From: Massilia sp. WG5
GTDB lineage: Bacteria > Pseudomonadota > Gammaproteobacteria > Burkholderiales > Burkholderiaceae_D
Assembly (NCBI RefSeq): GCF_001412595.2
Contig: NZ_CP012640.2
Coordinates: 5,949,802-6,013,801, forward strand
DNA length: 64,000 bases
Direction: 5' to 3'
Below the pieces are notes generated by a model. That model ran no database searches, was not told the DNA's origin, and saw only the letters and a list, made by a program, of their open reading frames with translations. Below are positions 33,770-54,275 of the stretch, one piece after another. The position numbers and the translations under genes are program-made. The stretch's first letter is position 1. Each line of letters starts with the position of its first letter.

Positions 33770-36700
33770 ATGATCGGCGTATTCGGTGCACTGGCGGCGG
33801 GGCAGGCGCGCTGGCGGCGCGCGCGCAACCTGCGGGCGGGACAGGCGCGTACGCGGCCGCAGGGGCGGGCGCAGGGGCGCACGCGGCAGGCGGCATCGAG
33901 CCCGGCGGCGCGCCCGGCCGCGCTGCGCTGGCTGGGCCTGGCCTGCTGCCTGCTGGCCCTGGCCGGCGCCGTCACGATCGGCGTGCATGCGCGCTGGGTG
34001 GCGGCCTCGGGCGAAGCGGCGGCCAGCGGGCCGGCCGGACCGGTGGCGCTGCAGCCGGTGCTGCCGGGCGCCGCCTTCACGGTGCCGCCCGGCCCGGCGC
34101 TCGTGCTCGAGCCGCATGGCGGCGCGGCGCTGCTGATCCTGTCCGGCCTGCGCGCCGAGCCGGCCAGGCACATCGACCTGTGCAGCCAGATGCTCGACCC
34201 GGCCCGCGGCCGCCTGCTGCCGCTGCGGATCGGCGTACGCTTCGACGAGGTCGCGGCCCTGGCCGCAGGCAAGTCCGGGGCAAGCGCCCCGGTCCCGCTT
34301 CGCAACGTGGTCCTGGCGGAAGAGGCCATGCCGCGCGTCCAGCTGGGCGGCAGCGCCGCCGCGCCCGAGCTGCGCTGGGAAGGCCATGCGGCGCGCTGGG
34401 TCGGCGACCAGGGAACGGTCTACCAGGCGGCGACCACTGGGCAGGCGCGGCTCGGCCGCCAGGGCTGGCTGCTGTGGGAGCAGGAAGCCCTGCGCTTCCT
34501 GCGCCGTCCCGCCGGCGCCTGCGCGGCGGGCGAGCTGGTGCTGCAGCTGTACCGGCCGGCGGTGCCGTCGCCGTCGCAGCCGGGCCGCGCGCTGGCGCTG
34601 GCCTTCCCGGCGGCCGGCGCCCCGGTCGAGACCTGGCTGGCGCCGGGCGATTACCGGGTGCCGGCGGCCGCCTCGCCGGCGCTCGAAGACCAGCGCCTGT
34701 TCGACAGCCTGCTGGCGCGCGGCCTGCTGCGCATGAAAGCCGACGGCCTGGCCGAGCTGGCGCCGCCTGACCTGGCCGCCTGGCGCGCGCAGGGCCGCGC
34801 CGGCGGAAGCGCCGGCTGGGACGGGGTCGCCATCGACGGCGACACCCAGCGCCTGCTCGAGCGCCTCTACCGCCATGCCGACGGCGACTTCGTGCGCGAG
34901 CAGGTCCGCATCTTCAACAGCGAGCGCCGGCTGCTGGCCTGGCGCCTGCGTCCCTCCGGCGACGCCGGCCGCTGGCGCATCGAGGCGGGCGGGGCGCCGG
35001 CGCCGCTGGCGCGCGACCTGCCGGCCGCCGCGACCCGGCTGTTCGCCCGCATGCCGGAGGGCTGGGGCGGCTGGCAGCGGGTGGCCGCCTGGCCGCTCGG
35101 CGGCGCGCGCGCGCGGCTGCGCCTGCAGCTCGCCGCTCCGGCGCCGGCGAACGCCAGGGTCCAGCTGATGCTGGTCGGGCGCCTGCTCGGCGTCAGCGGC
35201 GCGCGGCTGGCATCGAGCGCACCGGCTTGCGGCGGCCGTGCCTGCACGCGGCCGGACGAGGTGCAGGTGCTCGATCTGGCGCCCGAACCCGGCGCGCAGG
35301 AACTGGTGCTGGACGCCGCGCCGCTCGGCATGGAGGCGCTGGCCGCCCCCGGCGACGCGCGCTACCGCCACATCGTGCTGCGGGAGGGCGCGCTTGCGTG
35401 GCAGGCGTTGCCGGCCGGGCAGGGACATCGTGCGGCGGCGCCGGCCGCGGTGGCGCTGCTGGACCGCCGCGGCCGCAGCCTGTGGAGCGACGGCGCGCCG
35501 AGCGAGGCCGCGCGCCAGGCCGGGCTGGCGCCGCTGCTGGGCGTGCGGGCCGGGCATGCCAACAGCGTGGCGGGCATGCTGGCGCGCCTGCCGGGCGGCG
35601 CCGGCCACCGCGCCAGCCTGACGCTCGACCTCGACCTGCAGGCGGCAAGCCAGGCCGCGCTCGATTGCATCGCGATGCGGCGCGGCGCCTGGGATGGCCG
35701 CCATTGCAGCGGCGGGAGCGCGCCGCCGGCCGGGCGCCAGGCCGGCATGGTGCTGCTGGATGCCGACAGCGGCGCGGTGCTGGCCGCGGCCGGCGCCGGC
35801 GCCGGCCAGGTCGATGCCGCCAACTGGCTTGAAGCGCGCGACTTCGACCGCATCGACCCGGCCTCCAGCCCGCTGCGCCTGCCTGCCTTCCAGCACGACG
35901 GTGGCGCCGAGCGCAGTCCCGGCTCGACCTTCAAGATCGTCAGCGCCCTCGGGCTGGAACTGGCGGCGCGCCAGGACGCCCGGCTCGACGCGCTGCTGGC
36001 CGGCGAGCCGCTGGCCGCCATCAACGCCACCGCCGCCGCGCGCGGTTTCGCCTTCCGCACCGATGCGCCCACGTATCCGGTCGACGCGCGCGCCCGCATC
36101 ACCAATTTCCGCGACCAGGGGCTGGACCGGCGCGCCCAGGATGGCCGTCTCGGCCTGCAGCAGGCGCTGACCTACAGCCTGAACACCTGGTTCGCCTGGA
36201 CCAGCGAGCTGTCCGACCGCAGCCTGCTCGGCCGTCCCGAGGGCGGCGCGCCCGACCTGCAGCCCCTGACGCCGGGCGCGCTGGACCAGGTCCGCCCGAT
36301 CGTCGCGATGGCGCGCCGGCTCGGCTTCGGCCAGGCGCTGCGCCTGGACGGCGGCCTGCTGCCGGCCGATTACCCCTGGTCGGCCTGGGATGCGCTGCAG
36401 GCCAGCCCCAGCGGCATCGATCCGGTGCATACCCGCCACGAGCTGCGCCAGATGGCGATCGGGCTGCGCATGCAGGCCACGCCGCTGCAGATGGCGCTGG
36501 TGGCGGCGGCGGTCGGCGAGGGCCATGTGGTCCATCCACGCCTGCTGGCGGACCTGGACGGGCGCAAGGCCGACGAGCGGCCGGGTCCGGCGCTGGAGGT
36601 GCGCCTGGACCGCATCCGCGCCGGCATGAAGGGTGTGATCGACAGCGGCACCGCCTCCGGCGCCTTCCGCGCGCCCGAGCTGGCGGCGCTGCGCCGCGGC

Positions 36701-36916
36701 CTGTACGGCAAGACCGGCACCGCGCCGGTCGGCGACGGCGAGCTGGCCACGGTCTGGTTCACCGGCTGGCTGGAACCCCGCAGCCTGCCGGGGCAGGCGC
36801 ACCGGCTGGCCTTCGCCGTGTTCGTCAGCCGCTCGGGCGAGACCGGCGGCGGCCATGCGGCGCCGGTCGCGGCCGCCGTCCTGCGTTACTTGCAAGAAAA
36901 TAAATGGACGCCATAG
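33770..36916 (+). CDS. Penicillin-binding transpeptidase-domain protein with very large N-terminal region
   Basis: A 1048-residue bitopic membrane protein: basic cytoplasmic tail, one membrane helix (WLGLACCLLALAGAVTIGV, about residues 50-75), then a long periplasmic part. The C-terminal transpeptidase has all motifs: S719 in SPGSTFKIV, S803-L-N805 and K981 in YGKTGTAPVG. It should cross-link peptidoglycan and bind beta-lactams. The 600-residue middle region is beta-rich and unlike the dimerisation module of PBP2 or FtsI; I do not recognise it. It is the first gene of the left block of the kinase/phosphatase locus and the natural partner of the SEDS protein at 50893-53289. Start chosen by GGGAG at 33758-33762. 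Confidence 0.9.
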   Translation: MIGVFGALAAGQARWRRARNLRAGQARTRPQGRAQGRTRQAASSPAARPAALRWLGLACCLLALAGAVTIGVHARWVAASGEAAASGPAGPVALQPVLPGAAFTVPPGPALVLEPHGGAALLILSGLRAEPARHIDLCSQMLDPARGRLLPLRIGVRFDEVAALAAGKSGASAPVPLRNVVLAEEAMPRVQLGGSAAAPELRWEGHAARWVGDQGTVYQAATTGQARLGRQGWLLWEQEALRFLRRPAGACAAGELVLQLYRPAVPSPSQPGRALALAFPAAGAPVETWLAPGDYRVPAAASPALEDQRLFDSLLARGLLRMKADGLAELAPPDLAAWRAQGRAGGSAGWDGVAIDGDTQRLLERLYRHADGDFVREQVRIFNSERRLLAWRLRPSGDAGRWRIEAGGAPAPLARDLPAAATRLFARMPEGWGGWQRVAAWPLGGARARLRLQLAAPAPANARVQLMLVGRLLGVSGARLASSAPACGGRACTRPDEVQVLDLAPEPGAQELVLDAAPLGMEALAAPGDARYRHIVLREGALAWQALPAGQGHRAAAPAAVALLDRRGRSLWSDGAPSEAARQAGLAPLLGVRAGHANSVAGMLARLPGGAGHRASLTLDLDLQAASQAALDCIAMRRGAWDGRHCSGGSAPPAGRQAGMVLLDADSGAVLAAAGAGAGQVDAANWLEARDFDRIDPASSPLRLPAFQHDGGAERSPGSTFKIVSALGLELAARQDARLDALLAGEPLAAINATAAARGFAFRTDAPTYPVDARARITNFRDQGLDRRAQDGRLGLQQALTYSLNTWFAWTSELSDRSLLGRPEGGAPDLQPLTPGALDQVRPIVAMARRLGFGQALRLDGGLLPADYPWSAWDALQASPSGIDPVHTRHELRQMAIGLRMQATPLQMALVAAAVGEGHVVHPRLLADLDGRKADERPGPALEVRLDRIRAGMKGVIDSGTASGAFRAPELAALRRGLYGKTGTAPVGDGELATVWFTGWLEPRSLPGQAHRLAFAVFVSRSGETGGGHAAPVAAAVLRYLQENKWTP

Positions 36917-37007
36917 CCGGAATTAAGGGGTGATTTCCGCCCATCAGCGCGCCTCTATCGTGTGTTTGTATGGCATTATTTATTCGAGACACAAGAAAGA
37001 GGATGGT

Positions 37008-38303
37008 ATGCGTTTGCCGGGAACCCGGTACCAGGAGCCGGGCTGGGAGGAAGTGCGCAAGCTGCTGGGGCAATGCTCGCTGGCGGCGCTGCGCGCCTGC
37101 GGCTGTACGCGCCTGCTGGACCCGGCCGCGGCCGACGAGACCCTGCCTGACTACGTCGAGCTGACCGGCGAACGCCTGCGCCAGGCGCGCCATACGCCGC
37201 GCGCCCGGGCCGCCGGCAACGCCTATGGCGACACGGTGCTCGAACTGGCCCTGGCCCTGCTGTACGAACTGCAGGCCCGGCCCGGCGACTGGCATGCCTT
37301 CGTGGCCGCGCTGAGGGCCGAGGCCGCGCGCATCGATGCTTTCCGGGTCGATGCCGGCGGCGAAGCCCTGCTGCGCAAGAAGGTGAACGATATGTACGCG
37401 GTCCTGCGCGACAAGGTCGACGCCGACAACTACCAGGCGGCTTGCGGCCGTCCCTGCAGCCCGAACCGCATGTACGCCTACCGCATGCTGGACACGGCCT
37501 ACGGCGAGATCGCGCGCCTGTTCGCCGGCTGGGAGCAGCACCGCGCCCAGGTCGGCGCCATCCTCGGGCGCGAGCTGCACGGCAGCCCCATCGAAGTGCG
37601 CCAGCTGCGTTCGATTGCCGACTGCCGCGCCGACTGGGTGCTGCGCTGGAGCGAGAGCCTGGAAGCTTTTGCCGGCAGCGTGGGACCGCTGCACACCCGC
37701 TCGAAGCGCTTCGCCAGCCTGAAGGGGTCGCCGGACAAGATCGCCGCCATGCTGGCCGAGATCGGCGATTACGAAGCGCTGTCCTCGAACCGCGACCGCG
37801 ACTGGCTGCAGGACCGCGACGACGCCGCGCTGTGGGTGGAAGACTACTGGCGCATACTGCAGGCGTCGGAGGATGCGGCCACGCCGGGCCCCGACCTGAT
37901 CCTGGAAGCGCGCGAAGATGCGCTGGATGCGGAGCTTGCCGCCGAAGCCGAGCCGGAGCCCGGGCCGCTTCCCGCCCACGACCCGCAACTGGAAGTGCTG
38001 GCGGCGGCGGTTTCACTGCCCCCCGGCTATCTGCAGGCAGCGGGCGAGGGGGAGGACCGGTCCGGCTGGCTGGCGCGCGAGCTGGCCGCGGACGGCCTGG
38101 TGCTGCGCCTTGCCGTGTACGCGAAGCTGCTGGGACCTGGCGACGACAGTTATCCGGACGCCTGGCGCGACCCGGCCACCGGCGAGCTGCCGACCATGCA
38201 GCAGCTGGCCGGCCTGGCCCAGGTATCGCTGCCGACCCTGCGCAAGCGCCGGGATGCGGCGATCGCCCGCCTGCAGGCGGCTACCATGAGGAGAAGGGGA
38301 TGA
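37008..38303 (+). CDS. Unknown protein with C-terminal sigma-region-4-like helix-turn-helix
   Basis: A 431-residue cytosolic, mainly helical protein of no family I recognise. The last 30 residues, LPTMQQLAGLAQVSLPTLRK then RRDAAIARLQAA, look like a helix-turn-helix of the sigma-70 region 4 / RNA-polymerase sigma type. The start at 37008 has GAGG 8 bases upstream. The middle is rich in Trp, Arg and acidic residues (RDRDWLQDRDDAALWVEDYW). It overlaps the following gene by ATGA. A role as a dedicated regulator of the locus is possible but unproven; the HTH could also be a protein-binding module. Confidence 0.6.
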   Translation: MRLPGTRYQEPGWEEVRKLLGQCSLAALRACGCTRLLDPAAADETLPDYVELTGERLRQARHTPRARAAGNAYGDTVLELALALLYELQARPGDWHAFVAALRAEAARIDAFRVDAGGEALLRKKVNDMYAVLRDKVDADNYQAACGRPCSPNRMYAYRMLDTAYGEIARLFAGWEQHRAQVGAILGRELHGSPIEVRQLRSIADCRADWVLRWSESLEAFAGSVGPLHTRSKRFASLKGSPDKIAAMLAEIGDYEALSSNRDRDWLQDRDDAALWVEDYWRILQASEDAATPGPDLILEAREDALDAELAAEAEPEPGPLPAHDPQLEVLAAAVSLPPGYLQAAGEGEDRSGWLARELAADGLVLRLAVYAKLLGPGDDSYPDAWRDPATGELPTMQQLAGLAQVSLPTLRKRRDAAIARLQAATMRRRG

Positions 38304-38881
38304 ACACGAAGACCACGGCAGCGACTATTCTCGAGCGCCGCCTGCAGGAAGGCCTGCTGCTGGGCCGGCGCGTCGAGGGCGACCGCCTGGTGCTGCATGA
38401 TGCGACCCTGCGCGCCGCGCTGGACGGCAGCCGGCCGCTGACGGCGGGCGAACGCGCCGCCCTGCAGGCTTCGCCGCTGACCCTGCGCCGCCTGCGCCAG
38501 CTGGCCAACGAAGGACGCGCCGCGCAGGCTGCCGAGGCCGGGCCGCCGGCCTGGCGGGGCAGCCGCGGACGCCTGCGCGCGGCCAGCGGCGGGGAGCTGG
38601 AATCCCTGCGCACCGACGACGGCTGGTTTACCCTGCACCTGGTGGCCGACCGCGCCGGCTGGCGGACGATCCTGCAGATGGCGGCCGATGCGCCGTTCGC
38701 GCCGGCCCTGCTGGCGGCGCGCGCGCCGCTGCGGGTGCTGGACGGCGCCGGCCGCACCATCCTGGAAGGGCGGCTGGACGCCGACGGCGAATGCGAAGCC
38801 GCCTGGCCGTTCGGCGATCCGCCCGCCAGCCACCTGCAGGCGGCCGGCGCCGCCTTCAGCGTCGAAGCACTACCGGGATGA
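38300..38881 (+). CDS. Unknown protein coupled to the HTH protein
   Basis: A 193-residue protein without signal peptide or membrane helix. The N-terminal half is helical and Arg-rich (ASPLTLRRLRQLANEGRAAQ), and the C-terminal half is beta-rich (GWFTLHLVADRAGWRTILQM, LRVLDGAGRTILEGRLDADG), like a small immunoglobulin-type sandwich. It overlaps the HTH-protein gene by ATGA, a pairing reminiscent of sigma/anti-sigma gene pairs, though no ZAS zinc motif is present. It has a GAGAAGGGG site. Function unknown; only known by position in the locus. Confidence 0.6.
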   Translation: MNTKTTAATILERRLQEGLLLGRRVEGDRLVLHDATLRAALDGSRPLTAGERAALQASPLTLRRLRQLANEGRAAQAAEAGPPAWRGSRGRLRAASGGELESLRTDDGWFTLHLVADRAGWRTILQMAADAPFAPALLAARAPLRVLDGAGRTILEGRLDADGECEAAWPFGDPPASHLQAAGAAFSVEALPG

Positions 38882-38888
38882 GGACGTG

Positions 38889-39956
38889 ATGCTCGGATTC
38901 TTCAAGCGCGCCGCGGCGCCCGACGCGGCTTGCGAACTGGGCCGCACCGTGGTCGCGCTCGCGATCCCGGCCGGGGCCGCACCGCCCGCCGCCTGCCAGG
39001 CCGTGGTGGTCGGCACCGACGGCCGCACACGCCGACTGCAGGCCGCGCGCCGTATCGAAGCGCGGCCGGGCGAGACGGCGTACGCCTTCCATCCGGGGCC
39101 CTACAGCGCCGACCTGCAGCCTTTCGAATCGGCGCCGGAGATCGGGCTGCGCACCAGTTTCGCCGTCGACGCGCCCGACCCCCAGGCGTCGCAGCAGCGC
39201 TTCGACCTCTACCTGGCCTCCGAGGTGGAGGGAAGCCTGGACCTGGCGGCGCTGAGCGCCGCGATCGAAGCCGCGCTGCGCCACGAACTGGCGACCGGCG
39301 GCCTGGAGCTGCCGCCCTGCACCACGCTGGACGAGTGGAACGCCTTCCGCCAGGGCCTGAACCAGCTGCTCTACATGCGCTTCGGTGTGACGGTGGACGA
39401 TTGCGTGCCGGTCGACCTCGGCGACTCGCGCGACTATGCGCGCGAACTGGCGGCGCGGCTGCAGGCGCGGGCCGAACCCGAGGCCGGGGTGCCGGCGTCG
39501 CCCGCGCCTGCGCCCGAGACGGCGACGGCCGCCGCCGGGCGTTTCGATCCGGCCGTCGAAGACAAGAAGGCGCTGCGCCGCCTGTTCCTGGAACTGCCCT
39601 GCCTGATGTGCGGGCTGCGGCTGGCGGCGATGCCGGCCGCCCAGGAGCAGTTCCAGCGCCAGCAGGCCCTGCTGCAGCGCCTGGACCTGGTGTCGGTGGG
39701 CGTCAACGCGATGCCGGCGCTGGAGCTGGCGGCGCCGGGGCAGGTGCTGGCGCTGGACAGCCGGCTGCGCCGCGCGCGCCACAGCCGGCGCGCCTGCGTC
39801 TCGCTGGACGAGGCCTGGGCCCTGCTGGCGCGGCTGCGCCAGGCCGGCGAGGCCGCGCTGCCGCAGCTGTATGGCGAGGCCGAGCGCATCGTCGCCAACC
39901 TGGAGGCGGATTGCGCCGCACGGCGCAGCACGCATGAGGAAGGGGAGCAGCCATGA
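38889..39956 (+). CDS. Unknown protein, possibly a divergent SPFH-like fold
   Basis: A 355-residue cytosolic protein. I do not recognise a family by motif. Residues about 60-195 (GETAYAFHPGPYSADLQPFE, RFDLYLASEVEGSLDLAAL, AIEAALRHELATGGLEL, LLYMRFGVTVDDCVPVDLGD) follow the order of strands and helices of the SPFH domain in the protein encoded at 41107-43182, which would make it a degenerate relative. A Pro/Ala linker (about 210-230) leads to a helical C-terminal half with CLMCGL. It has a weak AGGA site and its stop overlaps the next gene by ATGA. Confidence 0.55.
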   Translation: MLGFFKRAAAPDAACELGRTVVALAIPAGAAPPAACQAVVVGTDGRTRRLQAARRIEARPGETAYAFHPGPYSADLQPFESAPEIGLRTSFAVDAPDPQASQQRFDLYLASEVEGSLDLAALSAAIEAALRHELATGGLELPPCTTLDEWNAFRQGLNQLLYMRFGVTVDDCVPVDLGDSRDYARELAARLQARAEPEAGVPASPAPAPETATAAAGRFDPAVEDKKALRRLFLELPCLMCGLRLAAMPAAQEQFQRQQALLQRLDLVSVGVNAMPALELAAPGQVLALDSRLRRARHSRRACVSLDEAWALLARLRQAGEAALPQLYGEAERIVANLEADCAARRSTHEEGEQP

Positions 39957-40978
39957 ACCAGGCGCCCGACACCTTCCAGTGCCGCTGCCCGCTGGCCGAC
40001 GGCTCGCTGCTGACGCTGACGGCCACGCGCCGCCCGCGCGCCGGCCGTGCCGAGCTCAAATGCGCGGTCCCGGACGACCCGCGCCTGGCCGCGCAGATGC
40101 AGCAGCTGGTGCGCCTGGCGCGCCTGACCGAGCCGTCCTTCGACAGCCGCGACCAGGTCGTGCTCAGCCTCGACCGCCGCCCCCCGGATGGGGACCGTGG
40201 CTGGGAACTGGCGGCGGTGCTGGCCGACCGCATGGTGCGCGGCCTGTTGCGGCCCCGTTCCGCGCTGCTGGCGAACGGCTGGTCCGACGCCTGGGAGTGC
40301 GGGCGCGTGGACGGGAATACCCTCGAGGCTGCGGCGCGCGCCCTGCCTGCAGACGCGGTGCTGGGCGGCCCCGGCGGCTTGCCGCACCTGGGGCTGCTGA
40401 GCGGACATGCCGATCCGGCCGCCGCGGTGTCCAGCGCGCGCGCCTGGTTCCCGCTGCACAGCGGCGAAGAGGGCGGCCTGGGCTGGGTCGAGGTCAGCGT
40501 GCATCCGCTCGCCCGGCACGCGGGGCAGGCGGCGCCGGACGAAGAACAGGCCATCGCCGCGCCGGGGCAGGATGCGGCGCGCCAGCTTGCGGTGCGCCAG
40601 GTCCTGGCGGGCGCGCGCCACTTCGACGGGCGCGCGCTGGGCCGCTGGCGCACGGTGGTGCGCTTCGGCCCGGAAGCCTTCGCCGGCAATTCCTGGGAAC
40701 TGGCGCTGGTGATGGCGGACCGCCTGGCGCGCGGTCGCGAGTTCGTGCCGCGCGGGCGCCTGATCGCCAGCGGCTGTTCCAGCGCCTGGCATGCCGGCCG
40801 GGTCGATACGGTCGCCGGCGTCGAGCCGAAGTGCGCGCTGCTGCTGCGCGAGGCCGGACCGGGCGACCGCATCCTGCTGCCGCGCGCCTGGCACGAGCAG
40901 CTGCCGGCGGGCTTCATGGAACAGCTGCGCGCGCAGGGGGCGAGCGCCGCCTGCGTGGAGCGGATCGGGATCATTTGA
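39953..40978 (+). CDS. Unknown protein with duplicated domain resembling the Lon protease catalytic fold
   Basis: A 341-residue cytosolic protein made of two related units. Unit 1 has GWELAAVLADRMVRGLLRPR (from about residue 83); unit 2 has SWELALVMADRLARGREFVP (from S247). In unit 2 the layout follows the Lon S16 domain: Ser247 at the position of the nucleophile in GPSAG, then GRVDTVAGVEPK with Lys293 where Lon has its catalytic Lys in GGLKEK, then GDRILLPRAW like Lon TVLIPxEN. The Ser-Lys spacing is 46 residues against 43 in E. coli Lon. Unit 1 lacks both. No AAA domain is present. It could be a stand-alone protease or a binding relic; the homology is inferred by eye. Confidence 0.55.
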   Translation: MNQAPDTFQCRCPLADGSLLTLTATRRPRAGRAELKCAVPDDPRLAAQMQQLVRLARLTEPSFDSRDQVVLSLDRRPPDGDRGWELAAVLADRMVRGLLRPRSALLANGWSDAWECGRVDGNTLEAAARALPADAVLGGPGGLPHLGLLSGHADPAAAVSSARAWFPLHSGEEGGLGWVEVSVHPLARHAGQAAPDEEQAIAAPGQDAARQLAVRQVLAGARHFDGRALGRWRTVVRFGPEAFAGNSWELALVMADRLARGREFVPRGRLIASGCSSAWHAGRVDTVAGVEPKCALLLREAGPGDRILLPRAWHEQLPAGFMEQLRAQGASAACVERIGII

Positions 40979-41036
40979 CGTATCCGGTCCGGTGCGGCGC
41001 ACGATTGCCGTGCGTACAACAGGCCGGACCGGCGGC

Positions 41037-41045
41037 TGCTAGAAT
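41037..41045 (+). promoter_or_regulatory. Candidate extended -10 promoter for the SPFH/kinase unit
   Basis: TGCTAGAAT matches TGnTATAAT with one mismatch. It lies 62 bases before the SPFH gene and directly upstream of three 11-bp tandem repeats that would fall in the 5' leader. No good -35 hexamer is at the right distance. Confidence 0.5.
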
Positions 41046-41053
41046 CGGTTGGC

Positions 41054-41086
41054 AACTGAGCGGTAACTGAGCGGTAACTGAGCGGT
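41054..41086 (+). repeat. Three perfect 11-bp tandem repeats in the leader of the SPFH gene
   Basis: AACTGAGCGGT occurs three times head to tail at 41054-41064, 41065-41075 and 41076-41086, between the -10 element and the AAAAAGGAG ribosome site. The unit is one helical turn long. Either phased binding sites or a slippage-prone array is possible. Confidence 0.85.
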
Positions 41087-41106
41087 ATGAAAAAGGAGTA
41101 GGGGTC

Positions 41107-45512: not shown

Positions 45513-45545
45513 CGGTCGCATCACCAAAGTGACTGGAGGTTCGCC

Positions 45546-45650: not shown

Positions 45651-45664
45651 TTCAGGCGTCCGAT

Positions 45665-47170
45665 TCAGGCGCCCGACAGCTGCGCAGGCGCGCGGCGGTC
45701 GGCGCCGCGGGCGGTCCGGCCTTCCGGATAGGGCTGCGCCGTAAAACGCACCCGGCCGTGGAAACCGGCCAGGCGGTCCAGCGCGCTCGCCGGGCCGAGG
45801 GCCGTGTCGAGCTCGGTGGCCGGATCGCGGTGCCAGAAACCGCCGTCGCGGTGGAACAGCAGCGGCAGGGCGGCGGCGCGCGGCAGCGCGGCAGGCGTGG
45901 CCCGACCCGGCATGACATCCGGCGCCACCAGCATGAAGCATTCGGCCGCGCCGCCGGCGTCGACGCGGTGCAGCACCACGGAATGCGGCAGCAGCGCCGT
46001 CACCACCAGCGCGGCCACGCCCTTGATGCTGGCGGTCAATTCGATGCGCATCCCCAGGCGCAGCGGCGCCGGGCTGTGCTTGCCGGGCCAGGCGCCGTCC
46101 AGCAGCAAGCCGTAGCGCGACACGTCCTCGATCTCGAAACCCTGTCTGCCCAGCCGGATCACGGCGTGGCGCGCCGAGATGCGCCGCGTCAGGCCTTCGT
46201 GCTCGGGGCCGTGCTCGCCGTAGTGGCACAGCAGGACGTCGGCCTCGGCATTCGTCTCCATGCGGCCCAGCACCCATTCGTCGGCCGCGAACAGGCGCAG
46301 GTGGCGCTGCATGCCCGCCTCCGGTTCCGCCTGCACCAGGCAGGCGCTCGACGCCGGGCAGGGATGGGCCCGGCGCGTGGCCGGCAGGTCGATCTCGATC
46401 AGGTCCTCGTCCCATGCGATGGTCGGCAGGGCCAGGTCGATCTTGCCGCGCGGGGCGCCGGACTGCGCGCCGAACTGGAGCTGGGCGATCGAGGCGTTGC
46501 GGGCGTCGATCGCGATGTCGAGCGGACCGGCGGCGTCCAGGCCGTGCAGGCGCGCGATCGAGCCGTCGTCGGCCTGGATGCGCACGTTCTTGTGCGCCGC
46601 CAGATAGGTCTGGTGGATCTCGGCCAGCGAGGCGTCGAGGCGCGGCACCAGCAGCACCAGGGTAGCGACCCAGGTGCGGGCACGGTCGGGCAGCCGCGCG
46701 TGCAGCTCGACGTCGACCCGGTACTGGCCGTGTTCGCGGCCGCGCGAGGAGAATTCGACCACCACCGGCCGCCAGCCGCCGCGCAGGCTGCGGCTGAAGG
46801 TCTGGCGTCCGCCGCCCTGGGGCAGCAGCGCCGACTGCAGCAGCATCGTGAGTTCGGCCGGCGCGTCGTCCGGCATGCCGCGCAGTTCCAGCTTGATGGC
46901 CTGGCGGCCGCCGGCGGCGCGCGGATCGAAGCCGCTGATGTGCAGCTGCGGCCCGGCCTGCTCGTGTGCGGCGCCGGGACGGATGGCATCGAGGGCATCG
47001 CGGCGGGCGCGGACCGCCTGCAGCATGTCGAAGCTGGAGCCGAGGGTGTCGGCGGCCGCCGTCGCAGCGGCGGATGCCGCGGGCTGCCCATGGCCGTGCG
47101 CGCACGCCTGCTCGCCGGGCATGACCCAGGCGGTGCAATGCGGATGATCGGGGCTGCTGCAGCGGTTCAT
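45665..47170 (-). CDS. FHA-domain protein
   Basis: A 501-residue protein. The first 30 residues have a Cys/His-rich segment (CSSPDHPHCTAWVMPGEQAC) like a small zinc-binding knuckle. Residues about 75-290 are beta-rich and unknown. The FHA domain covers about 291-385: WVLGRMETNAEADVLL with R303, ISARHAVIRL with S332 and H335, and EDVSRYGLLLDG. In canonical FHA domains the last motif holds Asn contacting the phosphothreonine backbone; here Tyr353 stands there, so binding may be altered. A further 115 residues follow. It probably reads phosphorylation by the two kinases of the locus. Confidence 0.85.
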   Translation of the reverse strand: MNRCSSPDHPHCTAWVMPGEQACAHGHGQPAASAAATAAADTLGSSFDMLQAVRARRDALDAIRPGAAHEQAGPQLHISGFDPRAAGGRQAIKLELRGMPDDAPAELTMLLQSALLPQGGGRQTFSRSLRGGWRPVVVEFSSRGREHGQYRVDVELHARLPDRARTWVATLVLLVPRLDASLAEIHQTYLAAHKNVRIQADDGSIARLHGLDAAGPLDIAIDARNASIAQLQFGAQSGAPRGKIDLALPTIAWDEDLIEIDLPATRRAHPCPASSACLVQAEPEAGMQRHLRLFAADEWVLGRMETNAEADVLLCHYGEHGPEHEGLTRRISARHAVIRLGRQGFEIEDVSRYGLLLDGAWPGKHSPAPLRLGMRIELTASIKGVAALVVTALLPHSVVLHRVDAGGAAECFMLVAPDVMPGRATPAALPRAAALPLLFHRDGGFWHRDPATELDTALGPASALDRLAGFHGRVRFTAQPYPEGRTARGADRRAPAQLSGA

Positions 47171-47291
47171 GGTCGGTGGCTTGGGCTTGCTGGGCTCGGG
47201 AGAAGCTTACGGGATTTTAGCGCGAGGCGGCGCGCCGCTCTTCCTTGAAAGGCAAGATTTTTTGCTAAAAAGCATTTTCACAAGGCTGGCG

Positions 47292-48269
47292 TCAGGCGAC
47301 CGGCAGCACGGTTTCGTCGCGCGCGTGATTGCCAGGCGTGCGCAGCAGGATGGCCGTCACGTTATCCGGGTGGAAGAAGGCGGGCGGGTGCGCCTCGTAG
47401 GCGCGCAGCAGGGTGGCCAGCATGCCGGCCGCATCCAGCCTGCCGCCGAGCAGCTGCGGCCACTGGCCTACCCAGCCATAGGGATCGGAGCAGGACCACA
47501 GGCCGTCGGTCGCCAGCAGGTAAGTCGCGTCCGCGCGCAGCGGCAGCGCGCGCCGGTCGGGCAGGGCGCACAGCCAGGACGGCAGGTTCAGCGGCGTCAG
47601 CTCGAACAGCGGGTCGCTCAGCTGCGCCGGATTGGCGAACGCATTCCCGAGGATGAAGGCTTGCGAGACCTGGGGCCGGTGCTCGCCATGCACCTGCTGC
47701 CACCATTCCCGTTCGCCGAGCAGCCCTGCCATGGCGAAGGCGGTGGCCGGCACGTGGTCGACGGTCAGCGGCGCCACGCGCTGGGGCGTGATTTCGTACA
47801 GGCGCGAGTCGCCGACGTGGTACAGCAGCGGATCGACGCCTTCCGGCAATTCCAGCAGGGTGAGGGTGGTGCCGGGGCGCGGCCCCGGGCCGGCCAGCGT
47901 GGCGAAGTGGCGCTGCAGCTCGGCGTGCAGGGCGTCCAGGCGGTGCGTCAGCTCGGCCGGCGAATCGCAGGGCGGCATGGCCAGCAGGCCGGCCGCCACC
48001 GCTTCCGCGGCTTCGCGGCCGTGGCCATGGCCGCCCATCCCGTCCAGCACGGCCAGGCGGGCATGGCCCTGGCGCCAGCGCGCGAGCTGGCGCCGCTGTG
48101 GCTGCTGGCCTTGCAGCCAGACGGCCTGGCCGCCGGCGTCGACCAGCAGCAGGTTGTCCTGGTTTTCTTCGCGCAGGCGCGGCCCCGCGCCCAGCCGCGA
48201 GGCGGCGGCCACGTCGAGCGCGCCAAAGCGCAGGGATGAAGCGAGGTTCAGGCCATCGGAATTCTGCAT
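47292..48269 (-). CDS. PP2C-family Ser/Thr protein phosphatase
   Basis: A 325-residue cytosolic phosphatase of the PstP/PppA/Stp1 kind. Metal-binding and catalytic motifs are in order: REENQDN (E35, D38), VLDGMGGHGHG (D76), YHVGDSRLYEI, LATDGLWS and FHPDNVTAIL. Several insertions (VWLQGQQPQRRQLARWRQG, then the 190-240 region) make it longer than the 240-residue minimal form. It should reverse kinase phosphorylation within the locus. It lies 121 bases upstream of the FHA gene on the same strand, with no clear terminator between them, and is divergent from the GNAT gene. Confidence 0.93.
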   Translation of the reverse strand: MQNSDGLNLASSLRFGALDVAAASRLGAGPRLREENQDNLLLVDAGGQAVWLQGQQPQRRQLARWRQGHARLAVLDGMGGHGHGREAAEAVAAGLLAMPPCDSPAELTHRLDALHAELQRHFATLAGPGPRPGTTLTLLELPEGVDPLLYHVGDSRLYEITPQRVAPLTVDHVPATAFAMAGLLGEREWWQQVHGEHRPQVSQAFILGNAFANPAQLSDPLFELTPLNLPSWLCALPDRRALPLRADATYLLATDGLWSCSDPYGWVGQWPQLLGGRLDAAGMLATLLRAYEAHPPAFFHPDNVTAILLRTPGNHARDETVLPVA

Positions 48270-48311
48270 CCGTTTACTCTAACAGAAGGTTTTTCCCTTA
48301 CACTGGATCTC

Positions 48312-48806
48312 ATGCTCATCCGTCGCCTCGTTCCGGACGATATTCCCGCTGCCGCCGCGCTGTTGCGCCGCGCGGCCCTGGAATACATCCTGCCCGAATC
48401 CACGCCCGAACAGGCGGCCACTTTCCTGGCCGAGCAGGGGGAAGAGGCGATGCGCGGCTTCCTCGCCAGGGGTTTCGTCTATCACGTGGCCGAAGCCGGG
48501 GGGACGCTGGCCGGCTTCATCGCTGTCCGCGAGCGCAGCCATGTCTACAGCCTCTACGTCGACAAGGCTTTTCACCGCCGCGGGATCGCGCGCAGGCTGT
48601 GGGAGACGGCCAGGCAGGCGGCGCTCGCTGCTGGCGACGGGCCCGGCCACCCGGGCGTCTTCACCGTGAACGCCTCGAACCACGCCTTGCCCTTCTACGC
48701 CGCGCTCGGCTTCGTGCCGACCAAGCCCATGCAGATGGGGATCGTGCGCTACAACCCGATGCACCTAGTCGTCCGCCCCGGGCGCACGCTCGTCGACCCG
48801 GCGTAG
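48312..48806 (+). CDS. GNAT family N-acetyltransferase
   Basis: A 164-residue acetyltransferase. The acetyl-CoA-binding motif is DKAFHRRGIARRLWETARQA, preceded by the strand GTLAGFIAVRERSHVYSLYV and followed by VNASNHALPFYAALGFVPTK, the usual N-x-x-A-x-x-F-Y motif. The substrate cannot be predicted. It is the only plus-strand gene inside the right block and its 3' end overlaps the SH3-like gene by 42 bases, which suggests later insertion or an unrelated local function. The start follows CACTGGATCTC; the ribosome site is weak. Confidence 0.88.
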   Translation: MLIRRLVPDDIPAAAALLRRAALEYILPESTPEQAATFLAEQGEEAMRGFLARGFVYHVAEAGGTLAGFIAVRERSHVYSLYVDKAFHRRGIARRLWETARQAALAAGDGPGHPGVFTVNASNHALPFYAALGFVPTKPMQMGIVRYNPMHLVVRPGRTLVDPA

Positions 48807-49253
48807 CCACAGGCTGCTGGTCCAGCCCTCGATTTCCTTCCCGTTCAGGCGGGCGCGCACGCGCAGCCAGTCGCCATCAAGGCTGCCGAGGGGCGTGACC
48901 AGGGTCCCGGCCGGCAGCACCGCCAGGCGCGGGGCGCCGGTCGCCTTGGCCGCGCGCAGGTTCAGGCTGTCGATCACGCGGTAGCGCGGCGCGGCGGCCG
49001 GCATCCGCCGAACGAGGGACAGAGGCGGCGTCAGCGGTTGTTCCTGGGGGCTGGCGACGGCCGGCGCGGCCGCCGGCAGCAGCGATGCCACAAGAAAGCC
49101 GAAGGCCAGGGTGCCGCCGCCGACCATCGCGAGGTTGCCGGCGGTCGGGCGGCGCCACCAGCGGCGCGGCGTCAGCAGGCCGGCCAGCGCCAGGGTCAGC
49201 AGCAGGCCGATGCCATAGGCGGCCACCGTCGCCCAGTGGATGGGGGCGCTCAT
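48765..49253 (-). CDS. Membrane protein with SH3-like domain
   Basis: A 162-residue protein. Two hydrophobic helices (VAAYGIGLLLTLALAGLL and AMVGGGTLAFGFLVASLL, residues about 9-60) are followed by a Pro-rich linker and a bacterial SH3-like domain (about 92-155: IDSLNLRAAKATGAPRLAVL, LGSLDGDWLRVRARLNGKEI, GWTSSLWLRR). Bacterial SH3 domains with the NLR..AS pattern often bind cell-wall peptides, which would fit a locus containing a SEDS polymerase and a PBP; the domain would then lie in the periplasm. It lies 12 bases downstream of the FHA-like gene and is co-transcribed with it. Confidence 0.8.
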   Translation of the reverse strand: MSAPIHWATVAAYGIGLLLTLALAGLLTPRRWWRRPTAGNLAMVGGGTLAFGFLVASLLPAAAPAVASPQEQPLTPPLSLVRRMPAAAPRYRVIDSLNLRAAKATGAPRLAVLPAGTLVTPLGSLDGDWLRVRARLNGKEIEGWTSSLWLRRVDERAPGADD

Positions 49254-49265
49254 CGTCGCGGTCCG

Positions 49266-50879
49266 TCAGGCATCGAAGCGCAGCACGTAATGGCCGGCGA
49301 CCAGGTGATGGCCGGGCGGCAGCCGGTAGGGCTGTTCCGGCGTCGCCTCGCCGATCGCCGCCACGAAGCGCAACTGTTCGTCGAGGTGGTACAGGGCCTG
49401 GGTCGCGCTGGCGCGCGCGATGCGGTAGCCGTCCGGGCCGGCCTCGAAGCTGAAGGCATTGCGCGACAGGCCGAGGCGGTCGGCGCTGGATGCCGGCGTG
49501 CCCGGGCCGGCGCGCAGGAAGCGCGGCGAATCCAGCACGCGCAGGCCCGCCAGCATCGGCGCGCCACGGCCGAACAGGAAGCGTGCGCCCGGCGCCACCG
49601 GCAGCGCCGGCGCCTGCGGCAGGCGCAGCAGGCCGAGGTAGCGGTCCGCCATCTCGGGCGCGGCCGCCAGCAGCTCGACCCTGGCGCCGTCGAAGGGGCT
49701 GAAGGCGGCCGGCGCCGACACCGGCTCGCGCCCGGCGGCCGTCACCGCATGCACGACGTCGGCGTCGTCCACCGCGAAGCCGAGCACCGTCTCGGCGCCG
49801 GGCGCGGAAGGCGCCAGCGCGCGGTTCAGGCCGATCTCCAGCGCCTGCGCGCCGGTCTCGCGGTAGCGCGAAAGGCGCGGCAGGGCCAGGGCCGCCAGCG
49901 CGACCCGCTGGCGCGCCACCGGCGCATAGGTGGCGTCGCTCTCGATGGCGGCCGGCGCCGGCCGGGCCAGCGGCACCGCCGTCATGTCGGCTTCGAGAGA
50001 CTGGCGCGGTTTCCACACCGCCGGCCGGCTCGATGGCGCCGGCGTCGATGCCGAGGGCGCGCGCAGCGGGGCCTGGACCGGCGCGGCCGCGCCGCGGGCC
50101 GGCGCCGAGGGCGAGGGCGACGGTGACGACATTGCGCGTGCGCCCGGCGCCGGGGTAATCCGCAGCAGCAGGCGCAGCGGCGCCCCGGACGCATCCACGC
50201 CGCCGCGGCGCGAGCGGATCGTGTAGTAGCCGCCGGCGGCGTCGAAGCTGCACTCGAAGGCGTCCTTGGGCCGTACCTGCACCTCGAGCGGGGCCTCGGG
50301 ACCGTCGTTGATCAGGAGGATCGCGCCTTCCGCGCCGAAGGGCCAGCCGGGCGCCGCGTGGGTGGTCTCGTGCTCGTCGTGGCCGATCAGGGTCAGGCGC
50401 TGGTTCGGATAGACCGGGCAGACCGTCTTCCAGACCGCGCTGTCGCGCGACACGCTCACCGTGTACTGCAGCTTCTCGTCCGGCGCCGGCAGGTAGACGG
50501 CGTGGCCGAAGCGCACCTCGACCTCGCCCGGCGCCAGGTCTTCGGCCCCGACCACGTGGTAGCGCACTTCGTCGCCGCCGAGCAGGTCGCCGAAATCCTT
50601 CTGGTGCAGCGCCGCCAGGCCCTGGGCCAGGTCGCGCACGCGGGCGCCGCGCGTGAGGTGGCGGTCGTCGTCGACTTCTTCCTGCGGCAGCGCCAGCGTT
50701 ACGTGCGAGAAGCAGCGCGTGGCGGCGCGGCCGCGCTGCTCGCGCGGCGCGCGCTCCAGCAGGTCGCGCAGCAGCGGACGGCGCGAAAACAGGGCCAGCC
50801 CGGGCGCCTGCCAGATCGCCTCGGGGCTGAACACGTCGTTGATCCGGGCTAGGGTTTCGTGCTGTACGTAGACGGGCAT
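49266..50879 (-). CDS. Large protein with C-terminal FHA-like region
   Basis: A 537-residue soluble protein. The first 240 residues (MPVYVQHETLARINDVFSPE, RFGHAVYLPAPDEKLQYTVS) contain beta-rich segments I do not recognise. A Pro/Ala/Ser linker (about 245-310) leads to a C-terminal part (about 310-537) that ends ARFLFGRGAPMLAG, LSRNAFSFEAGPDGYRIARA, VAGHYVLRFDA, which follows the FHA pattern of GR, SR and strand order with the usual Asn motif lost. It may be a phosphopeptide reader or scaffold in the kinase locus. The start at 50879 has GAGGAGA upstream. Confidence 0.6.
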   Translation of the reverse strand: MPVYVQHETLARINDVFSPEAIWQAPGLALFSRRPLLRDLLERAPREQRGRAATRCFSHVTLALPQEEVDDDRHLTRGARVRDLAQGLAALHQKDFGDLLGGDEVRYHVVGAEDLAPGEVEVRFGHAVYLPAPDEKLQYTVSVSRDSAVWKTVCPVYPNQRLTLIGHDEHETTHAAPGWPFGAEGAILLINDGPEAPLEVQVRPKDAFECSFDAAGGYYTIRSRRGGVDASGAPLRLLLRITPAPGARAMSSPSPSPSAPARGAAAPVQAPLRAPSASTPAPSSRPAVWKPRQSLEADMTAVPLARPAPAAIESDATYAPVARQRVALAALALPRLSRYRETGAQALEIGLNRALAPSAPGAETVLGFAVDDADVVHAVTAAGREPVSAPAAFSPFDGARVELLAAAPEMADRYLGLLRLPQAPALPVAPGARFLFGRGAPMLAGLRVLDSPRFLRAGPGTPASSADRLGLSRNAFSFEAGPDGYRIARASATQALYHLDEQLRFVAAIGEATPEQPYRLPPGHHLVAGHYVLRFDA

Positions 50880-50892
50880 GATTCGTTCTCCT

Positions 50893-53289
50893 CTATGGGT
50901 TGGCGCTTGCGGCACTCTGGCTGGCGACGCCGACAGCTAGCAGGGGGCAGATGAAAAACAGCAGGTGCGAGCCGCCCGCCGACAGGAAACTCATCGGCTG
51001 GCCCATCACCGGGAAGATCGCGAGGTTGGTGCCCCACGAGAGCAGGAAATGGCCGGCCACGAAAGCCGCGCCGCCGCACAGCAGGAAGCAGCGGAAACGG
51101 GCCAGCCAGGCGACGCGGAAGTCGCGTGCGCGGGCGCCGTCGAGCCAGCAGCGCACCGCCGTGTGCAGCAGCCCGGCCACGAACAGGGCCTGCAGGCACC
51201 ACAGCAGCAGGGCGGCGAGCAGGCCGTGGCGGTTCAGGAAGAAGGAGGGGGCGAAGTCGTCCTGCACCGCCGGGATGCGCAGCGCCGCGCCGGCATCCTG
51301 GCCCAGCGTGGCCAGGCCGAACACGTGATCCGCCCCGAACCAGCCGCCGCCGGCGATTGCCTGTGCGCCCAGCAGCAGCTGCTGGCCGGTGTGCGGGTGC
51401 GAGCCGGGATCGAGCCAGACCAGGAAGCGGTCGGCATAGAAGTTCCAGCGCGCGAACTCGGCCGGACCTGCGGCGCGCAGCAAAACCACGCCGGCGACGG
51501 CGGCCAGCGCGATGCCGACGCAGGCCAGCGCCAGCCAGTGCCGGCCGCCCGCCAGCGCGAAGGCCAGCGCCATCGCGCCGCCCCAGACGGTGAGCAGGAC
51601 CAGCGGCGAATAATCGTCGACCTGCACCAGCGCCACCGCCAGCAGCACCAGGAACAGCAGGGCCGGCGCGCCCAGGCGCAACACCCGCCGCAGGACCCCG
51701 CCCGGCGCCGGCTGCGCCCCGGAAGCCAGCGCGAGGGAATGGGCGCTGAGGGCGGCCAGGGTGAGCTTGGCGAATTCCACCGGCTGCAGGTCGAACACCC
51801 CGGTCTCGTCGCCGAATGCGACCTGCAGCAGCAGGAACAGCAGCGCCACGCCGCTGAGCAGCAGCAGCGCCAGCTCGACCCGCGCCTGCGCCAGCGGCCG
51901 CGCTGTGCGGAGCGGCCGTAGCGCGCACAGCAGGCCGCAGGCGCCGGCGCCGATCGCCAGTAGGGCGCCGGTCCTGCCGGCGTGACGCAGCCAGGACGAT
52001 TCCGGCGCGCCCAGCCCGAGCTCGAGCTGGGCCAGCAGGCCGGTGGCGAGCAGCAGCACGGCGGCGCCGGCGGCCAGCGAAGAACCGCCGACCAGCCACA
52101 CGCAGCCCAGCGCGGCCCAGGCCGCGACCATCACGATGCCGATGCCGGCCGGCGCGCCGCTCTTCTGCAGGTAGAGCAGCACCACGCCGGCGCCGGCCAG
52201 CAGCAGGGCGCCGGGCACGCCGAGGCTGCGCGCCCTTCCGAGGCGGCGCGCGGCGCCGGAAACGAACAGGCCTGCGCCGACCGCCAGCGCCAGTCCGCAT
52301 GCGACGGCCAGCGGGAGCATTGCCTGTTCCGGCAGTTGCCAGAGATCGCGCCGCGCCCAGGTCCAGGTCACGCCTTCGGGCAGGCGCTGGTGCGCTTCCT
52401 GGTGGAGGGCGACGTGGGACACCGGCTGCAGGTGCAGCAGGTCGCCGTTGCGCACCAGGAGCAGGCGGGTGCGGCCCAGCTGCAGGGCGCCGGCGCCGTT
52501 CAGGCTTTCCTCGCGCTCGGCCAGCAGCACGGCGTCGCCGGACGCGTCCGCCGGCTGGAGCAGCAGCGGAGCCTGCTGGGCATTCGCGCCGCCCGCCAGC
52601 AGCATGCCCTCCCCGGTCTGCTTGATGGTGGCGGCGGATGCGGGAACGCCGGCGATGGCGACGCGGTTGCCGCAATCGAGGTTGCCGCCGAAGACCAGCG
52701 GCCGGGCGATGCCCAGCAGCGAGGGCGTGAAGCGGTTCCAGGCGCCGATCATGCGCGAGGCCAGCCGGGTGTCCGGGCAGTCGGGCTGGGGCAGGCCGTC
52801 GCGCAGCAGCGTGGCGCCGTCGTAGCGCCAGCGGGTGTCGCCGCGCGTGAAGCGCACGCCGGCGTCGTCGACGGCGTCGATGTCGAAGCGGGAGGCGCCG
52901 AGCTGGAAGCCCTGGCCGCGGGCGAGCGGCGCGCTGCCGGCGCGGCGCCGGTGCTCGCCGCGCTGGACCAGCAACGGCGCCGGCGCGCCCGCGCTGGCGG
53001 CCCACCAGCCGCCCGCGGCGTCGCGGCGCAGGCGCAGGCGCACGCCGTCGCCCGGCGGCAGGCCGAGCGCGGTCCCGTCCAGCACGGTCCCGGCGCCGGC
53101 ATCCAGGGCGACGGCGACCCGGGCCGGCATCCAGGCGTCGGGCGCGCGCAGCAGGCAGGCCAGCTGCAGGGCGCACAGCAGCAGAAGCAGGGCGGCCACC
53201 AGCATGCGCCCACTGCGCAGGGCGGGACGCGCGGCCGCGGCGGCAAGCGCGCGCGCGGGCGCCGCGGCGGCGATGGCGGCGCCGTTCAT
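50893..53289 (-). CDS. SEDS-family peptidoglycan polymerase (RodA/FtsW/SpoVE) with large N-terminal extension
   Basis: A 798-residue membrane protein. After one helix (about 30-50) comes a non-membrane beta-rich region of about 270 residues, then about ten helices of the SEDS fold: QPVEFAKLTLAALSAH, VQVDDYSPLVLLTVWG, HPHTGQQLLLGAQAIAGGGW, QDDFAPSFFLNRHGLL (Asp677/Asp678 at the position of the RodA catalytic Asp) and FPVMGQPMSFLSAGGSHLLF near the end. It should polymerise lipid II with a class B PBP as partner, most likely the protein at 33770-36916. Canonical RodA is about 370 residues, so the extension is exceptional. It overlaps the kinase gene by ATGA. Confidence 0.9.
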   Translation of the reverse strand: MNGAAIAAAAPARALAAAAARPALRSGRMLVAALLLLLCALQLACLLRAPDAWMPARVAVALDAGAGTVLDGTALGLPPGDGVRLRLRRDAAGGWWAASAGAPAPLLVQRGEHRRRAGSAPLARGQGFQLGASRFDIDAVDDAGVRFTRGDTRWRYDGATLLRDGLPQPDCPDTRLASRMIGAWNRFTPSLLGIARPLVFGGNLDCGNRVAIAGVPASAATIKQTGEGMLLAGGANAQQAPLLLQPADASGDAVLLAEREESLNGAGALQLGRTRLLLVRNGDLLHLQPVSHVALHQEAHQRLPEGVTWTWARRDLWQLPEQAMLPLAVACGLALAVGAGLFVSGAARRLGRARSLGVPGALLLAGAGVVLLYLQKSGAPAGIGIVMVAAWAALGCVWLVGGSSLAAGAAVLLLATGLLAQLELGLGAPESSWLRHAGRTGALLAIGAGACGLLCALRPLRTARPLAQARVELALLLLSGVALLFLLLQVAFGDETGVFDLQPVEFAKLTLAALSAHSLALASGAQPAPGGVLRRVLRLGAPALLFLVLLAVALVQVDDYSPLVLLTVWGGAMALAFALAGGRHWLALACVGIALAAVAGVVLLRAAGPAEFARWNFYADRFLVWLDPGSHPHTGQQLLLGAQAIAGGGWFGADHVFGLATLGQDAGAALRIPAVQDDFAPSFFLNRHGLLAALLLWCLQALFVAGLLHTAVRCWLDGARARDFRVAWLARFRCFLLCGGAAFVAGHFLLSWGTNLAIFPVMGQPMSFLSAGGSHLLFFICPLLAVGVASQSAASANP

Positions 53290-54275
53290 GCGGCGCTCCG
53301 CAGGGAGGCGCCGGCGCCGGCCTCCGCGCAGGCGGCGCGGGCGCGCCCGATCAGCCGGCTGATCTCGAGGGCGTGGCGTGGGCGCTGTTCCGGGCGCGGC
53401 GCGAGCAGGGCGCGCAGCAGGCCGAGCGCCGCCTCGCCGGCTGCGGCGCTGGCGAGACCGGCATGGCGCAGGTAGAGCGCGGCTTCGTCCGGTGCGAGGA
53501 TGGCCGGCAGGCCGCCCTGGTGGCGCGCGCGCAGGACCGTGGCGCCCTCCATGCCGTGTTCGCGCCAGGCGCCGCCGCAGGCGCTGCAGAAGCGCAGCAT
53601 GGCGCCGGTGACCAGATGGTAGAGCAGGGCGCCGAGGGCGAAGTAATCGCTGCGGGCGTCGGTCCGGTAAGCGCCGTCGGGATCGGGGAAGAACTGCTCG
53701 GGCGCCTGCCAGTTGGCGGTGCCGGCGTAGGAATGGGGCGCGCGCTCGAGCAGGGGACGGTTGGTGCCGAAGTCGGCCAGCTTCAGCGCGCCATTGTGGT
53801 CGACCAGCAGGTTGGCCGGTTTCAGGTCGAGGTGGCGCCAGCCGTACTGGTGGACCTTGGCCAGCGCCTGGTTGGCCTGGGCGGTCCAGTCCAGCGCCTG
53901 GTCGAAGGAAGGGACGTCGCCGCGGCCGCGCATCCGGTCGAGGTGGTGCGCGAGATCGCCATCCAGCAGTTCGAGCGCCATCGCCGGCTGGCCGAGGTGT
54001 TCGCCGCTGTCGAGCAGGCGCACGATGTGACGCTGGTCCCAGGGACGAAGTGCGCGCAGGAAGGCGATCTCGGCGTCGAGGCAGGCGGTCCAGCGCAGGC
54101 GCTGCGGCGGCAGGGCCAGGCCCATCTGCTCGGTGTTGACCAGCTTCAGGGCCGCGGGCTGGCCGCCGCCGGCCGCTTCGGCGCGCCACAGCACGCCATA
54201 GCTGGAGCCGGCCAGGGGTTCGCGCAGGCGCCAGGCGCCGGCCGTCAGGGTAATGATGTCGCCCGCCTCGAGCAT
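53286..54275 (-). CDS. Hanks-type Ser/Thr protein kinase, soluble
   Basis: A 329-residue kinase with the motifs LAGSSYGVLW (atypical glycine loop), K44 in AALKLV, E70, HLDLKPAN (D150) and D168 of ADFGTN, plus APEQFF. The HRD arginine is replaced by Leu (HLD), as in kinases that need no activation-loop phosphorylation. A CxxC pair (C230, C233 in LRFCSACGGAW) sits in the C-lobe and could hold a metal or redox switch. No membrane helix or PASTA domains. It is the first gene of the right block, with a GGGAGG ribosome site, and overlaps the SEDS gene, so it probably controls that polymerase. Confidence 0.92.
   Translation of the reverse strand: MLEAGDIITLTAGAWRLREPLAGSSYGVLWRAEAAGGGQPAALKLVNTEQMGLALPPQRLRWTACLDAEIAFLRALRPWDQRHIVRLLDSGEHLGQPAMALELLDGDLAHHLDRMRGRGDVPSFDQALDWTAQANQALAKVHQYGWRHLDLKPANLLVDHNGALKLADFGTNRPLLERAPHSYAGTANWQAPEQFFPDPDGAYRTDARSDYFALGALLYHLVTGAMLRFCSACGGAWREHGMEGATVLRARHQGGLPAILAPDEAALYLRHAGLASAAAGEAALGLLRALLAPRPEQRPRHALEISRLIGRARAACAEAGAGASLRSAA

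Follow-up and report, generated by a model that had tools for sequence, protein, structure and literature searches.

Why would a bacterium that already has RodA and FtsW encode another SEDS polymerase among Ser/Thr kinases, a phosphatase and FHA proteins? The question is raised by a block at 33.7 to 54.8 kb of a 64,000-nucleotide stretch (the window) of the Massilia sp. WG5 genome (contig NZ_CP012640.2, positions 5,949,802 to 6,013,801), a 6.2-Mb genome of Massilia-like Oxalobacteraceae; the closest SEDS and SPFH relatives with a named source are mostly from Massilia. Domain hits and intact motifs confirm what a sequence-only reading of this DNA had listed in the one locus: two Hanks kinases (KinFGE and Kin2), a PP2C phosphatase, two FHA proteins (FHA1 and FHA2), a SEDS polymerase, a penicillin-binding protein (PBP) with a transpeptidase domain, an SH3 protein and an SPFH protein (Table 1). 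We propose, giving it about an even chance, that the block encodes a third, deeply divergent glycan synthase of the SEDS-class B PBP type, which would make an envelope polymer conditionally and be switched by Ser/Thr phosphorylation.

The third SEDS protein and its transpeptidase

Three proteins of the genome match PF01098, the SEDS protein of the window and two canonical ones. Of the latter, RodA adjoins a PBP2-like transpeptidase and an RlpA-like protein, and FtsW sits between MurD- and MurG-like proteins (neighbour labels assigned by reading). With canonical rodA and ftsW elsewhere in the genome, the block is not the housekeeping set, which removes the concern, raised in the sequence-only reading, that its SEDS protein might simply be the only RodA of the genome. 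The window protein passes the PF01098 cut-off and has the SEDS fold, placing it in the superfamily, and its scores of 61.1 bits with the FtsW equivalog (NCBIfam cut-off, 337.5) and 54.6 bits with that of RodA (336.7) are far from canonical membership of either. In the SEDS tree, a phylogeny that the earlier reading had suggested as a check, the window protein and its relatives (long SEDS proteins) are parted by a 100/100 branch from RodA, FtsW and the RodA of the actinobacterial operon; two long rows, div_L186 and can_Odyss_L196, were left out of the tree and of the residue counts. All 12 genomes outside the Oxalobacteraceae with a long SEDS protein likewise carry at least one canonical SEDS protein (over 330 bits).

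The block shares with the RodA-PBP2 and FtsW-FtsI pairs the SEDS fold, the catalytic Asp, the QPxExxK motif and the PBP partner. The Asp, in extracellular loop 4 (ECL4) and equivalent to D297 of E. coli FtsW in the available text of PMC8765783, is kept in 22 of 22 and, by a second count, 47 of 47 long SEDS proteins, and QPxExxK is kept as well. In contrast to those pairs, the block SEDS protein has four extra predicted transmembrane helices (TMs) and an extracytoplasmic domain, lacks the Arg-Trp of ECL2, and is accompanied by a PBP with about 600 N-terminal residues without a Pfam hit. The extracytoplasmic domain is predicted to comprise 270 residues with a beta fold and is weakly FHA-like. 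The transpeptidase domain of the PBP scores 59.7 bits (Pfam cut-off, 22.1), and the protein scores 64.9 against PBP2 (cut-off, 455); its SxxK, SxN and KTG motifs are intact in 11 of 12 sequences, some of which are cut by stretch ends, and a Pfam scan gave no hit outside the transpeptidase, pedestal/dimerisation domain included. Accessory SEDS proteins beside the housekeeping ones are described in the available texts on Listeria and Enterococcus (PMC6686043, PMC12724132), and the likeness drawn from those texts lies in the additional SEDS protein.

Retention of the block in relatives

How widely is this set of genes kept together? Profiles were searched in 294 genomes of the family (44 genera), 398 of the phylum and 399 of the order. 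The long-SEDS profile matched 65 of the family genomes, from 5 of the 44 genera, and two phylum genomes, the window's own and another of its genus, and the PBP profile matched 67 of the same 294. Both proteins occur in 64 family genomes, SEDS alone in one (82% complete) and PBP alone in three (one in 610 contigs, the others 91% and 81% complete). In one genus the block is present in 26 of 27 listed genomes, and a single listed genome of the window's genus (G376) has neither protein. The PBP and the SPFH protein were each found in all 20 SEDS genomes chosen from the five genera, and gene order is conserved in the stretches fetched from them, insertions apart, with several stretches ending before the PBP gene; on such conservation the sequence-only reading had hinged. 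Co-retention persists where the block is split, its halves lying about 0.85 Mb apart in one genome (G406) and on different contigs in another (G239); in a third (G457) the PBP is broken into two distant pieces.

Beyond the family, the SPFH profile gave seven hits in the order genomes, one of them outside the family, in Chitinilyticum aquatile (L091). Its PP2C, FHA2-SEDS-Kin2, a divergent PBP, SPFH-SH3 and s-r-q-p genes lie within about 42 kb in a different order. The same region encodes an AAA+ ATPase, two caspase-FGE proteins confirmed by Pfam, a lytic transglycosylase (SLT and LysM) after FHA2 and, by eye, an integrase and an FtsK-like ATPase, with tRNA-Leu(gag) next to the integrase. This version (L085 to L090) is perhaps mobile.

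A scan of genome contigs yielded 242 relatives, of which 80 loci were examined: 68 of Oxalobacteraceae type by gene content and 12 others, including records labelled Competibacteraceae/Contendobacter, Neptuniibacter, Marinobacterium and alphaproteobacteria. The core of SEDS and FHA2, to which Kin2 and PBP are usually added, reaches Chitinilyticum, Competibacteraceae and marine gammaproteobacterial and alphaproteobacterial metagenome-assembled genomes (MAGs), whose labels are not secure. A module of kinase, phosphatase, FHA, SEDS and PBP genes, of the kind that the earlier reading had proposed to look for, is conserved, with PP2C as a variable member. A PBP, whole or cut down, accompanies 11 of the 12 other loci; in the 68 it lies beyond the 10-kb flank. 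A bin labelled Phycisphaerales (L166) was not counted as planctomycete evidence, since its canonical SEDS protein groups with Contendobacter and it is probably misbinned. FHA2 homologues occur in 80 of 80 loci, lying upstream of the PBP and not downstream of SEDS in L152 and L162. A stricter distance count disagrees, giving 61 of 68 and 10 of 11, and in all seven Oxalobacteraceae-type misses of that count an FHA2 frame was read right after SEDS. Kin2 lies at most 4 kb upstream of SEDS in all 65 Oxalobacteraceae-type loci with room for it and near SEDS in 8 of the 12 others. KinFGE counts from the 80 loci were inflated by Kin2 cross-hits and were not used.

The regulatory proteins keep most of the residues expected of them. 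Kin2 has its active-site Lys in 29 of 30 sequences (one gap) and the HxD Asp and DFG in 30 of 30; the checked residues of the KinFGE kinase are present in 17 of 17, the Asp/Asn motif of PP2C in 20 of 20, and the GR and Ser/His of FHA1 in 21 of 21, while G, R, S and R of FHA2 are each found in 73 of 75. FGE enzymes have a catalytic Cys pair. No Cys occurs in the stretch RGGSW/RGGGW+16 in any of the 21 proteins with the pattern, a count that leaves out 3 of 17 KinFGE proteins lacking a pattern match, so that by this motif the domain does not look like an FGE enzyme.

One Contendobacter genome has several copies. Among them a very divergent one (L186:52-10781) includes PP2C, a Pfam-level FHA domain, a PBP-like protein without a Pfam hit, an FGE protein that matches kinases weakly and a SEDS protein that scores weakly in Pfam; it may represent another SEDS subgroup. 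In a Marinobacterium MAG (L187:6803-19940), Kin2, PBP and a q-like gene lie near a vWA-PP2C-kinase triad, with SEDS on a different contig, and a p-like gene beside the PBP matches weakly (E 4.7e-4).

Origin and possible function of the block

Does the block descend from the kinase-phosphatase-SEDS operon of actinobacteria (fhaA-fha-pstP-rodA-pbp-pknA-pknB), of which Corynebacterium glutamicum has an example (available text of PMC2784874)? The likeness to the pstP-rodA-pbpA-pknAB-fha cluster noted in the sequence-only reading is real at the level of parts: the reference operon used here, that of A. oris (L206), encodes DUF3662-FHA, FHA, PP2C, RodA, PBP and two kinases, so that two kinases, PP2C, two FHA proteins, SEDS and PBP are encoded together in both. 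The sequences tell a different story. The kinases match at 28.7 to 32.7%, as kinases do, the PBP in the transpeptidase only (26.9% over 201 residues, 7.9e-8), and PP2C weakly (BLASTP, 0.004; profile, 6.6e-10 in a set of seven proteins). The block SEDS protein has no BLASTP match to A. oris RodA among the matches listed (to E 1.4), and the FHA proteins have no significant match, FHA2 reaching FhaA at E 0.10 only. An FhaA homology of FHA2 has no sequence support, and DUF3662 hits none of 52 FHA2 members at E ≤ 5. In the SEDS tree, A. oris RodA and a Rhodococcus FtsW-like protein group with the canonical proteins across the 100/100 split, on long branches. Both block kinases lack the PASTA domains that PknB bears in actinobacteria, and the block adds SPFH, SH3, FGE and proteins p, q, r and s, with canonical SEDS elsewhere in the genome. 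Since the SEDS protein stands apart from A. oris RodA and neither it nor the FHA proteins find a significant match, the best reading of these sequences is a convergent, independent assembly with the same part list and not the same pedigree. The sequence-only reading had left open assembly or transfer; the first is favoured by the tree, and the second, judged against one operon, finds no support as a transfer from actinobacteria. No description of such a locus appeared among the open-access titles and abstract starts listed, which, with the subscription literature mostly outside that scope, is weak evidence of novelty.

How might the parts work together? Outside the membrane, the SEDS protein would polymerise a lipid-linked precursor and the PBP would crosslink the product, the large extracytoplasmic domains of both probably replacing the usual contact between PBP pedestal and SEDS. 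KinFGE, with a SHOCT-like oligomerisation part and an FGE-fold ligand domain, may dock on the SPFH scaffold in the cytoplasm, and KinFGE and Kin2 may, from what is known of the family, phosphorylate the synthase, the scaffold or the FHA partners. FHA1 and FHA2 would recognise the phosphorylated sites and either retain the synthase or let it go, PP2C would reset the switch, the SPFH and SH3 proteins would place the complex at membrane and wall, and FGE or caspase-FGE domains may sense the trigger. Use of the synthase is probably conditional, in stress, damage or development, because it is sparsely present beside complete housekeeping SEDS sets. A bolder version, which we consider rather unlikely, has a third SEDS class, neither RodA nor FtsW, that binds its lipid substrate at a site of its own and bears an FHA-like fold on the outer side of the membrane; it would build a special wall or a non-peptidoglycan envelope polymer on the command of a sensing network of kinase-FGE or caspase-FGE proteins that is thinly scattered in Proteobacteria. 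If the proposal holds, control of SEDS-PBP synthesis by kinases and FHA proteins arose at least twice, and did so in Gram-negatives already having RodA and FtsW; a third SEDS group whose loops have changed would be a natural test of which residues are needed and which substrates can be polymerised. Massilia and Duganella strains can be cultured, which makes direct testing possible.

Several observations weigh against the proposed phospho-switched synthase. The co-occurrence of SEDS and PBP is confounded by shared ancestry. ECL2 residues R137-W138, kept in 17 of 17 canonical SEDS proteins, are absent from 22 of 22 long ones; G199, the Gly of the PDLG motif and likewise kept in the 17 canonical proteins, is replaced by Ser in all 22, and Y379 by Ala in 15 of 22. 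In five Competibacteraceae-type loci (L131, L140, L158, L165 and L167) the PBP beside SEDS is cut to about 170 to 335 residues without the transpeptidase, and no full copy was found in those genomes, which are possibly incomplete; in L166 the transpeptidase motifs are lost. PP2C was not found in 2 of the 20 family stretches (G300 and G413) and is missing from 8 of the 68 Oxalobacteraceae-type loci, some ending at contig edges, and from 11 of the 12 others, where Kin2 is missing from four. The FHA2 motif is missing in two marine loci (L115 and L119), and its His is Ala in 66 of 75 proteins. With the PBP shortened in five loci and its motifs lost in L166, crosslinking is not a constant part of the system, and the SEDS polymerase, which keeps its catalytic Asp in the five, may work there without a crosslinker. 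Because canonical ECL2 residues are lost, its substrate, too, may differ from the canonical one, and a peptidoglycan product cannot be assumed.

This last point leads to the first alternative, that the product is not ordinary peptidoglycan but a different lipid-linked glycan or a strand that has been modified, the PBP then serving as a scaffold or as an altered transferase. We judge it unlikely, given the nearly always intact transpeptidase motif, the lytic transglycosylase after FHA2 in Chitinilyticum, which points to peptidoglycan, and a likeness to WaaL in general fold only. Of similarly low probability is a conflict or damage response, in which the wall is fortified or remodelled when FGE, caspase or kinase proteins sense an intruder or wall damage. 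The caspase-FGE proteins and AAA+ ATPase beside the integrase and tRNA-Leu of Chitinilyticum would fit it, as would FGE genes with a caspase-like N terminus (by eye) near Contendobacter copies, the Marinobacterium triad, and part types in common with the conflict systems of PMC7159879, which have kinases, PP2C, FHA and caspase proteins and in whose available main text the word FtsW does not occur. Against this, PADLOC, run on 10 of the 13 core window proteins (r, s and SH3 were left out), matched only the two kinases strongly and PP2C weakly (0.0018), with no anti-phage marker other than generic kinase matches; the near-universal presence of the block in one genus is unlike most defence loci, and no SEDS relative was found in the plasmids or viral contigs searched. 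A chance neighbourhood, with a spare SEDS/PBP pair beside unrelated kinases, would account for the occasional lack of PP2C and for GNAT-, MFS- and pirin-like insertions (by eye), which show that not every neighbour is a partner, but it is very improbable and largely refuted by co-retention, the core being kept in 80 loci, also in rearranged order and when split.

Layout and neighbouring genes

The block consists, as the sequence-only reading had described, of two convergent halves, PBP-p-q-r-s-SPFH/zinc ribbon-kinase-FGE on the plus strand and Kin2-SEDS-FHA2-SH3, then PP2C-FHA1, on the minus strand, and four ATGA-type overlaps are real (38300, 39953, 43179 and 53286-53289).

Table 1. Genes of the block and their positions in the window
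Feature	Position	Strand
Class-B-like PBP, 1048 aa: TM, ~600 residues without Pfam hit, C-terminal transpeptidase (SxxK/SxN/KTG)	33770..36916	+
Protein p; C terminus helix-turn-helix-like, by eye only	37008..38303	+
Protein q; homologues in Chitinilyticum and Marinobacterium MAG	38300..38881	+
Protein r	38886..39956	+
Protein s (earlier "Lon-like" gene; label not supported)	39953..40978	+
Scaffold: zinc ribbon, SPFH-like, coiled coil, zinc ribbon	41107..43182	+
KinFGE: SHOCT-like, Hanks kinase with intact active-site residues, coiled coil, FGE-fold domain	43179..45476	+
FHA1: FHA protein, GR...SxRH motif	45665..47170	-
PP2C phosphatase; motif Asp/Asn kept 20/20; gene absent from some relatives	47292..48269	-
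GNAT-like gene (by eye), between SH3 and PP2C genes	48312-48806	+
TM and bacterial SH3 protein	48765..49253	-
FHA2: N-terminal domain and elaborated C-terminal FHA domain	49266..50879	-
Third SEDS polymerase, 798 aa: predicted 4 extra TMs, extracytoplasmic beta domain, 10-TM SEDS core; catalytic D678	50893..53289	-
Kin2: Hanks kinase with intact active-site residues	53286..54299	-
Small Gly-rich protein; conserved neighbour, membership uncertain	54401..54763	-

Among the extra parts named in the sequence-only reading, the FGE fold and the zinc ribbon stand and the Lon-like label does not. Among the matches listed, a profile built from the family of s scored the S16 domain of the Lon protein encoded in this genome no higher than shuffled controls, Pfam hit none of five members, comparison with PDB sequences gave nothing significant, and the reading of a Ser/Lys pattern was dropped. 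The idea that protein r holds another SPFH domain likewise found no support (hhalign probability, 0.2%), and protein p had no significant match among PDB sequences.

The GNAT-like gene is present in only 13 of 21 gene-called loci and 28 of the 68 Oxalobacteraceae-type loci and is therefore regarded as cargo, as are MFS- and pirin-like genes (by eye) that interrupt the locus in other species. The Gly-rich protein has a Tyr/Arg-rich tail, and its gene is found upstream of Kin2 in all 21 gene-called loci. In many relatives the block is flanked by divergent genes for a metallophosphoesterase and an M28 peptidase (54991-57752, plus strand, in the window), the M28 gene occurring in 60 and the metallophosphoesterase gene in 30 of the 68 Oxalobacteraceae-type loci.

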